From Chitinophagaceae bacterium (GTDB lineage: Bacteria > Bacteroidota > Bacteroidia > Chitinophagales > Chitinophagaceae), in assembly GCA_027486835.1 (NCBI GenBank), contig JAIXOJ010000066.1, positions 1 to 39,817 on the forward strand: a stretch of DNA of 39,817 nt, read 5' to 3'. Every line of letters begins with the position of its first letter. Position 1 is the first letter of the stretch. Position numbers and translations under genes: made by a program. This document shows, in pieces, positions 1 through 39,817 of the stretch. Under the pieces are notes generated by a model. That model searched no databases, was not told the DNA's origin, and saw only the letters and a program-made list of their open reading frames with translations.

Positions 1-297
1 AAAAGTCTTTTTAACCTCGTTTTCAATTTTGAAATACACTAAAAAAATTATTTCAAGCGCATTCGTACTGCAAAATGAACCAAAAAAGTCTTTTTAACCT
101 CGTTTTCAATTTTGAAATGCACTAAAAAAATTATTTCAAGCGCATTCGTACTGCAAAATGAACCAAAAAAGTCTTTTTAACCTCGTTTTCAATTTTGAAA
201 TACACTAAAAAAATTATTTCAAGTGCATTCGTACTGTAAAATGAACCAAAAAAGTCTTTTTAACCTCGTTTTCAATTTTGAAATACCCTGAAAAATA
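1..297. repeat. 83-bp tandem repeat, about 3.5 copies
   Basis: The motif AAAAGTCTTTTTAACC recurs at 1, 84, 167 and 250, so the period is exactly 83 bp. Three copies are complete and the fourth breaks down near 287-297. Copies differ at only a few bases, such as TACACT versus TGCACT and AAGCGC versus AAGTGC, so the duplications are recent or homogenised. Each unit holds a small palindrome, TTTCAA-TT-TTGAAA. The array starts at the window edge and probably continues upstream. Positions 298-486 are AT-rich, and I see nothing else there beyond possible upstream sequence of the next gene. Confidence 0.95.
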
Positions 298-486
298 ATT
301 ACACGGTCAATTTATTTCCAAATCGATATTTGAAACACTGTTTTTCTTAGGAAATCACTTACAAACGACAAGAAAAACATGAACTAGCCATTTATTCCAA
401 ATAATGGCCAAAAATTAACACAACTGAAACAAGATATTTTCCAAGATAATTACAAAAACTTTTTTTCTTGTAACAAACAATATACC

Positions 487-11981: not shown

Positions 11982-12175
11982 GGGATTCAACAATCCTTGC
12001 CCTTCCGTTCTGATTATTCCATTATTTCATACACATTCCCCTCTAAATTCAGGAGCAAAAATCAACCTCATTCAACGATAACAAGTTGACAACCTAAAGC
12101 GCATAAAGGTGAAACCTGATTGGTACGACCCCAATGGGATTGAATGTAATGTTCGTGTTCTTTGCTATAAACATT

Positions 12176-12666
12176 TGAGCCCTATCAATTACAAATAGAG
12201 GGCTATCAGTTACAAATAGAGGGCTATCAGTTACAAACAGAGCGCTATCAATTACAAACAGAGCCCACTCAGTTACAAATAGAGGGCTATCAGTTACAAA
12301 CAGAGCCCTCTCAGTTACAAATAGAGCCCTCTCAGTTACAAATAGAGCCCTCTCAGTTACAAATAGAGGGCTATCAGTTACAAATAGAGCCCTCTCAGTT
12401 ACAAACAGAGGGCTATCAGTTACAAATAGAGCCCTCTCAGTTACAAATAGAGGGCTATTAGTTACAAACAGAGCCCTCTCAGTTACAAATAGAGGGCTTT
12501 CAGTTACAAATAGAGCCCTCTCAGTTACAAATAGAGGGCTATCAGTTACAAATAGAGCCCTCTCAGTTACAAACAGAGCCCTCTCAGTTACAAACAGAGC
12601 CCTCTCAGTTACAAATAGAGCCCTCTCAGTTACAAACAGTGGGCTATCGGTTACAAACAGAGGGTT
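12176..12666. repeat. 21-bp tandem array A, 23 units
   Basis: The core TTACAAA recurs every 21 bp from 12189 to 12651 with no insertion or deletion, giving 23 units. Each unit is TTACAAA, then T or C, then AGAG, then a GC block. The GC block is AGGGCT followed by ATCAG, or AGCCCT followed by CTCAG, with one AGCGCT variant (unit 3). AGAGGGCT and AGCCCTCT are perfect 8-bp reverse complements, so neighbouring units of opposite type can pair. Because 21 is a multiple of three, long open frames appear by accident on the minus strand (12094-12738); I do not treat them as genes. It is not CRISPR, as there are no unique spacers. The gaps 11982-12175 and 12667-12802 show nothing else recognisable. Confidence 0.97.
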
Positions 12667-12802
12667 ATTTTTCATTTCCACCCTCATAACATTCCAGCAA
12701 AAACTAGAGCTTACTGAATTTAACCCAAGACCCATCATGATAATTAAGGTACATTTTTCTCTATTATACTTGAAAACATGATTTGCGAAGTATTCGGGGA
12801 TA

Positions 12803-13009
12803 GTTCATTTGCCGTAGGCGAAAATAAAATTCGGAGATATGTTACTAGCTAGGTCGCAACTGGATTTGAAATAAGGGTTGATGCCTCCTGCAGTTCATTT
12901 GCCGTAGGCGAAAATAAAATTCGGAGATACGTTACAAGCTAGGTCGCAACGGGAATTGAAATAAGGGTTGATGCCTCCTGCGGTTCATTTGCCGTAGGCG
13001 AAAATAAAA
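12803..13009. repeat. 90-bp tandem repeat, 2.3 copies
   Basis: GTTCATTTGCCGTAGGCG recurs at 12803, 12893 and 12983, a 90-bp period. Copies one and two are nearly identical (differences such as GATATGTTACTAGC versus GATACGTTACAAGC), and the third stops after about 27 bp. Each unit contains TTTGCC-GTA-GGCGAA, a near-perfect small hairpin. It lies between array A and the beta-helix gene. Positions 13010-13289 hold no further element that I can identify apart from the expected promoter of the next gene. Confidence 0.93.
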
Positions 13010-39093: not shown

Positions 39094-39357
39094 AAAAATT
39101 GATTTTAAAAAATGATTGAAATATTGAGATGGACACAAAACTAGGGGGGAAATTTTTCGCTTGGAAACCCACTCATTTAAAACAATTGTTAATTTTTTAA
39201 TCGCCTTTATTAGCTATTTATTCCTTACTGCAAAAAAATAAATAAGGCAACCTCAACAAGCAATTCTACAACAGAAAATCAATTAACAAGTACCCTTTTA
39301 AAAGTCTAAAATCAGGTGTACTTGGGGGAAACAGCCCTTTGAAAAAAATTTAGGGTT

Positions 39358-39817
39358 AACAGTTACATGTATTGTAAAGTCATTGAAAATCAGAGCCCTA
39401 TCAGTTACAAACAGAGGGTTATCAGTTACAATCAAAGCGCAATCAGTTACAAACAGAGGATTATCAGTTACAAACAGTGCCCTATCAGTTACAATCAGAG
39501 CCCTATCAGTTACAATCAAAGCGCTATCAGTTACAAACAGAGGGCTATCAGTTACAAACAGAGCCCTATCAGTTACAAACAAAGCCCTATCAATTACAAA
39601 CAGAGGGCTATCAGTTACAATCAGAGCCCTATCAGTTACAAACAGAGGGCGATCAGTTACAAACAGAGGGCGATCAGTTACAAACAGAGGGCGATCAGTT
39701 ACAAACAGAGCCCTATCAGTTACAATTAGAGGGCTATCAGTTACAAACAGAGCCCTATCAGTTACAATTAGAGGGCTATCAGTTACAAACAGAGCCCTAT
39801 CAGTTACAATTAGAGGG
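39358..39817. repeat. 21-bp tandem array B, at least 20 units, runs off the edge
   Basis: The core TTACAA recurs every 21 bp from 39405 to 39804 without any gap (20 units), and degenerate units begin near 39358. GC blocks are AGGGCT, AGCCCT, AGCGCT or AGGGCG, all followed by ATCAG. From 39699 the units alternate strictly as a 42-bp higher-order repeat (ACAG-AGCCCT, then TTAG-AGGGCT). It has the same period and orientation as array A 27 kb away but a different sub-variant spectrum. Open frames across it on either strand are accidental. Positions 39094-39357 hold nothing that I recognise beyond the upstream region of the preceding gene. Confidence 0.97.

Follow-up and report, generated by a model that had tools for sequence, protein, structure and literature searches.

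Intergenic tandem arrays with a period near two helical turns and mostly unrelated units in a genus of the Chitinophagaceae

Tandem arrays and open frames of the contig

The window, that is, the whole stretch of 39,817 nucleotides that was analysed, is contig C117 of a Chitinophagaceae assembly of 6.4 Mb in 219 contigs, and it carries the arrays and array-borne open frames collected in Table 1. The focal array lies 3' of merC. TRF placed it at 12177-12662 with a period of 21 bp, 23.1 copies, 86% matches and 0% indels, bearing out the exact period and the number of units given in the initial annotation, and as a tandem array it clearly exceeds chance. TRF also returned a second solution with a period of 42 bp and 11.7 copies at 89%, and the array is therefore described as a 42-bp higher-order repeat. 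Directly past it, at 12802-13009, lies a 90-bp direct repeat of 2.3 copies that contains TTTGCCGTAGGCGAAA.

Table 1. Repeat arrays of the window and the open frames that run across them
Feature	Position	Strand	Description
Focal array	12177..12668	.	About 23 units of 21 bp, GG and CC types, 42-bp higher-order repeat, non-coding
Sister array	39391..39817	.	Same unit family as the focal array; reaches the contig end
Array with a period of 83 bp	1..301	.	Sub-period 41 bp; contig start; A+T-rich inverted repeats
Open frame created by the focal array	12094-12738	-	Candidate false heptapeptide-repeat protein
Open frame created by the sister array	39367-39729	+	Candidate false heptapeptide-repeat protein
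Open frame created by the sister array	39298-39582	-	Candidate false heptapeptide-repeat protein

The sister array is missing from the initial annotation. Further members of its unit family occur in the same assembly at C46:1-231 and C67:20039-20277, and since C46 starts with the array that ends C117, the two are probably one array split by the assembly. The array at the contig start is a possible member of the 21-bp class described below, as its period of 83 bp amounts to four units of some 21 bp; its fold test gave z = -1.64 (p = 0.08). The focal unit, allowing up to three mismatches, was found in none of 59 genomes of a family sample and none of 295 of a phylum sample. At the focal site 3' of merC, a class array was seen at one of 12 congeneric loci, within flanks of at most about 1.5 kb; this lone case (genome G002) lies some 400 bp downstream, beyond another ORF, and has an unrelated unit.

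A frame of 214 aa is open across the focal array, which might suggest that its repeats encode heptapeptides within a protein gene. Pfam BHD_1 scored 38.5 bits on this frame, a value reached only by summing over fragments because the fragment is repeated, and every single stretch failed. Class-wide, coding was rejected: of 52 arrays, 46 had open frames where 46.5 were expected, and codon-position bias was absent in 43 arrays. Since periods of 40 and 41 bp occur as well, we regard a coding array as the least credible of the readings considered here; the arrays do generate false repeat-protein frames in annotation.

The focal array was cut into 24 slices of 21 bp, the first starting at 12168, ahead of the TRF start. 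By core dinucleotide, 10 slices are of the GG, 13 of the CC and one of the CG type; the second base past the block, here called the linked base, is A in 9/10 GG slices and C in 12/13 CC slices. The two linked unit types that had been reported from this array thus stand, at 21 of the 23 GG and CC slices; the slices at 12168, 12231, 12252, 12441, 12483, 12630 and 12651 are exceptional. The order of the types alternates only weakly more than a random order, with 14 opposite neighbours against 10.8 expected (p = 0.12), and the opening 126 nt of the array have a fold energy that does not stand out (z = -1.20, p = 0.12).

It had been proposed that this linkage reflects maintained pairing between neighbouring units of opposite type. 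In the focal array, an 8-bp complementary block is present in 11 of 23 neighbour pairs in addition to the linkage, and the complementarity of neighbours is borderline (6.0 against 4.33 in column-permuted units, p = 0.053). The sister stretches, however, argue strongly against the proposal, as the linked base occurs in none of their 20 CC or CA units (0/9 CC units at 39391-39817, 0/4 CC units in C46 and 0/7 CA units in C67, where CA units occupy the place of CC units), and their pairing was no better than that of column-permuted units (p = 0.40, 0.23 and 0.97 for the sister array, C46 and C67). In C67 one block now reads AGCACT with the other still AGGGCT, so that complementarity was broken without compensation. 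The initial annotation had named pairing no better than in shuffled units, or other arrays lacking the linked bases, as the outcome on which its idea would fall, and the sisters give both; maintained pairing is in our estimate barely credible. Its alternative, in which two founder units were copied, suits the data better than pairing and accounts most simply for both unit types. Because the frame AG..CT is a palindrome, a change at two bases suffices to turn the GG form into its reverse complement, the CC form, and a CG intermediate was found in both the focal and the sister array. The dyads read off units of this family (AGAG-CC-CTCT and ATAG-AGGG-CTAT), which lie within single units, could also explain the linked bases.

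A class of 21-bp arrays in the genus

Tandem arrays with a period of 9-90 bp and at least 2.8 copies were counted in 40 contig-start stretches of the same genome (606,917 b), namely the starts of C1-C44 minus C13, C16, C18 and C23, contigs already selected for their arrays. In the counts across arrays, those inside ORFs, with a mean column variability above 0.33 or with fewer than five units were left out, the minimum being lowered to four units in a replicate set of 10 arrays and to three for 40-42-bp arrays. Of the 44 intergenic arrays, 29 had a period of 20-22 bp, 11 of 40-42 bp and four another period, so that 40/44 repeat at a multiple of the helical turn. This gives class-level support to the suggestion, made for the focal array alone, that 21 bp matters as two helical turns. 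In the autocorrelation of 54 arrays, peaks were found at 21 and 42 only, and lags 7 and 14 were under expectation. Indels were absent from 37 of 52 21-bp arrays, and end units diverge more than inner ones (0.183 against about 0.12). Fourteen of the 40 class arrays of the census are no more than 100 bp away from the end of their contig, and thus the class probably breaks short-read assemblies.

The units share little sequence. Compared all against all, 51 units resembled shuffled units except for a few families, and over 65 motif-independent units, a set including 24 congeneric units with two loci entered twice, no convincing common k-mer was found; GTTACAA and TAACTGA were each present in none of them. 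A-rich 5-mers were frequent in the 41 units of the own genome (TCAAA 12, AAAAT 12 and CAAAA 11, against a 95% bound on the shuffled maximum of 10), and no 5-mer exceeded the corresponding bound of 14 across all 65. A loose pattern recovered further 21-bp arrays with other spacers in the own genome. Of the 12 other members of the genus, 10 contained matches, in counts that are unspecific, since the pattern read backwards also often matched.

Applied to seven congeners (20 stretches, 373 kb), the same method yielded 12 intergenic arrays with a period of 20-22 bp and four with one of 41-42 bp, and eight stretches inside long congeneric contigs (160 kb) held nine arrays of 21 bp, one of 42 and one of 62. 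A further 20 genera from the family (352 kb) contained no intergenic 20-22-bp array, the nearest finds being one 21-bp array in an ORF and one intergenic 23-bp array, and none was found in 20 genomes taken from order to phylum level (381 kb); with 1-20 kb read per genome outside the genus, these absences hold per sample. The HtpG protein of the own genome is 73% identical to that of Niastella vici; with two congeners the identity rises to 88%.

Single 21-bp arrays are nonetheless widespread across bacterial phyla. A scan of the genome collection for GTTACAA occurring three times at 21-bp spacing matched at least 115 stretches from several phyla, and among the matches listed the array had a period of 21 bp in 79 cases and of 7 bp in 26. 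Apart from the match itself, nine of the 115 listed loci contained a further intergenic array, with a period of 20-22 or 40-42 bp, and six stretches (12-15 kb) of other Bacteroidota among the matches contained one 22-bp array and no 21-bp array. Long 21-bp arrays were seen in Bacillus (L120:5512-6116, 28.8 copies) and in an Oscillospiraceae genome (L168:7167-8000, 39.2 copies).

The arrays turn over among congeners. At uvrA loci of the own type, a 21-bp array lies within 500 bp downstream in 4/12 loci (3/11 genomes), in a comparison that includes one locus (G009) with a flank of just 321 b. The units found there differ, being GACTATATGGGTTGTTACAGC in the genome G000 and ATAAACCTCACGAGAGTAACC in G010, with TTCGTTACTTGCACGAGATGA and ATTATTGATTCTTCGGCAAGC downstream of the two uvrA copies of G002. 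Since GTTAC is present in three of these four units, it is possible that the arrays are related by descent with sequence replacement instead of having arisen independently. At a conserved gene pair, the intergenic region spans 245 b with a 21-bp array in G010, of which TRF covers 110 b and degenerate units extend further by eye, and 72 b with no array in G000. In a congeneric intergenic region (L263:8029-8273), the palindrome GGACGTCC recurs by eye at 21-bp spacing between varying spacers, and one occurrence of GGAGCTCC, likewise palindromic, replaces it.

Placement was assessed with 52 arrays of the own genome and its congeners, motif-chosen arrays included. No preference for gene orientation or for the stop side was found. 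Arrays were rarer than expected within 150 bp of start codons (15/58 against 22.3, p = 0.0025), a depletion that gave p = 0.10 at 200 bp, and were neutral at stops. Their scarcity by start codons means that placement is not wholly neutral.

Inverted repeats and the origin of the arrays

Variation within the arrays is not spread evenly over the unit. Variability is lower in the columns covered by the consensus unit's best inverted repeat than in the remaining columns, with a relative difference of -0.46 and the lower value in 41 of 55 arrays, GTTACAA-chosen arrays being set aside. Two nulls were applied, one rotating the dyad and the other permuting columns with base and variability kept together, and this value was reached in none of 5,000 runs under either. 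Under rotation, the effect holds separately for the own genome (19 lower of 25 arrays, p = 0.0007) and for the congeners (14 of 21, p = 0.0003). With arms of at least 4, it was found in 20/23 arrays at 20-22 bp and was absent at 40-42 bp (10/18). The replicate of 10 arrays gave a non-significant difference of -0.24 (p = 0.12). Once the motif was masked, the difference was -0.24 in 20 motif-chosen arrays (p = 0.09) and -0.25 in 35 arrays from other lineages (p = 0.056), 25 of which had arms of at least 4 and showed -0.41 (p = 0.017). Hence, of the structural element suggested earlier for the focal array, the pairing between units did not hold, and what stands is that inverted-repeat columns inside units are less variable across the class.

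The dyads themselves are only modestly stronger than the intergenic background. Arms of at least 6 were present in 2/26, 2/17 and 3/19 units, against 3.9-5.0% of intergenic 21-mers, and the total symmetry of 26 motif-independent units of the own genome was not above that of shuffles (p = 0.36). The gaps separating the arms range from 0 to 7 with no fixed value. Folding against permuted columns gave a mean z of -1.07 over 73 arrays, and dinucleotide-preserving shuffles gave -0.86 in the own genome (66 arrays), -1.44 in congeners (21) and -1.37 in other lineages (73). A class-wide folding excess was dropped, as 100 ordinary intergenic windows, taken from the own genome only, had a z of -0.96, which the own arrays do not exceed. 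In the own 21-bp arrays, the longest perfect stem had z = 0.46 (standard error 0.16).

Taken together, these observations lead us to favour, at a probability of about 0.45, the view that local amplification in steps of two helical turns has produced a class of intergenic, non-coding arrays throughout the genus. The amplification step would be two turns of B-DNA, or about 21 bp, and would act on any sequence present at the site, seeding on short inverted repeats or preserving them, and repeats of 40-42 bp would arise where two diverged units together form the repeat. Inner units would be homogenised and end units would decay, and the greater divergence of end units was counted in favour of slippage or unequal exchange. 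The alternation of GG and CC in the focal array would then be a 42-bp higher-order repeat from two founder units and not a maintained hairpin between units. It is the clustering of periods, with no signal at 7 or 14, the freedom of sequence, the restriction to one lineage (12 congeneric arrays at 20-22 bp against none intergenic in the samples from elsewhere), the turnover at uvrA and the gene pair, and the near-neutral placement that favour amplification with a two-turn ruler. We infer that one process with a physical ruler makes all the arrays, and that hairpin-templated copying or correction may cause the dyad bias; the dyad constraint fits both such copying or correction and selection on binding sites.

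Several results weigh against amplification. No generator was found, and RAYT-type Y1 transposase genes are not expanded in the genus, where 11 genomes had 1-7 matches each against 0-7 in 19 genomes of other genera. The dyads exceed background modestly and the own arrays have the fold potential of ordinary intergenic windows. The dyad-column effect is missing at 40-42 bp and not significant in the replicate, arrays are depleted near start codons, the shared GTTAC allows descent with sequence replacement at uvrA, and isolated 21-bp arrays occur in other phyla.

The main rival, which we hold to be on the unlikely side, is a phased architecture in which a dimeric protein of the nucleoid type binds cooperatively to dyad sites that recur every two turns and so face the same way on the helix. 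Such a protein would read dyad or shape over exact sequence and might compact or insulate the DNA or anchor loops. The two-turn and four-turn periods, the lower variability of dyad columns and the many indel-free arrays are all consistent with this, as is a weak excess of predicted curvature over permuted columns in the own 21-bp arrays (z = 0.52, standard error 0.19). Against it stand the missing shared motif, the scattered arm gaps, the turnover of array positions among congeners and the lack of any orientation or stop-side preference. A reading that joins the two, and which we consider doubtful, is that a sequence-independent machine carried by this lineage, with a two-turn ruler, repeatedly writes 21-bp arrays made of short inverted repeats into intergenic DNA in the manner of eukaryotic satellites, and that these arrays then serve as phase-locked sites organising the chromosome.

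It is improbable that the arrays are transcribed and that their dyads act as RNA stems, for example at the 3' ends of messages or in small RNAs. The quieter dyad columns would suit such a role, and strong hairpins do occur in some 42-bp units, as in a congener (L340:11461-11677) in which nested inverted repeats place 8-bp arms around 5-bp arms. Compensatory changes were at chance, however, with seven of 195 changed pair cells against 5.7 expected (26 arrays, motif-chosen included), and Rfam gave no match at the gathering threshold in 123,826 bases from six sources. RNA would also leave the two-turn period unexplained, and the dyad-column effect is absent at 40-42 bp. Spread by a MITE-like mobile element, to which the few unit families with several loci might point (the focal family occurs on three contigs), is very improbable given that the units are mostly unrelated.

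Arrays of mostly unrelated units, nearly all with a two-turn period, present in one genus and absent from the samples of its neighbours, point to a ruler, which may be an enzyme copying two turns at a time or selection for helical phase. Either kind is testable, and would tell how non-coding satellites arise in bacteria.

Comparison with known repeat systems

By title and abstract, in literature covered mostly outside subscription journals and preprints, we found no report of arrays locked to 21 bp with unrelated sequences. Eukaryotic minisatellites and satellites are local tandem arrays with a homogenised centre and decayed ends that occur at many periods; the present arrays share the homogenised centre and decayed ends, whereas they keep almost the same period from one unrelated locus to the next. 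REP and BIME palindromic repeats are generally described as one family per genome with its own RAYT transposase. They resemble the present class in being intergenic and dyad-symmetric, and differ from it in that the units described here are unrelated and the Y1 transposase counts are not raised.

Among bacterial tandem repeats, one survey describes widespread intergenic arrays whose function is left open (PMC6344855). According to a second report, direct repeats of the heptamer TAACTGA form long intergenic arrays, and the corresponding regions of close relatives are shorter and repeat-free (PMC4679880). As described in these sources, prokaryotic heptamer repeats are like the present class in being tandem, intergenic and patchy, including in some Bacteroidetes, and in having no known function (PMC4679880, PMC6344855). 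The 40 class arrays likewise lie outside ORFs; the heptamer repeats, however, recur every 7 bp and, in the case of TAACTGA, always with one sequence, whereas the present class has a period of 21 and mostly unrelated units. An origin of the class from heptamers was rejected, as the lag-7 signal was absent in 54 arrays. The intergenic tandem repeats of Planctomycetota are similar in their setting and are reported to be linked to copy-number change (PMC9426551). The BrickBuilt MITE minisatellite of Porphyromonas gingivalis is reported to be intergenic in a member of the Bacteroidota and to have 23-nt units, near two helical turns (PMC4596501). BrickBuilt consists of one unit family within a leader-tail element, whereas the class described here comprises many unrelated units.
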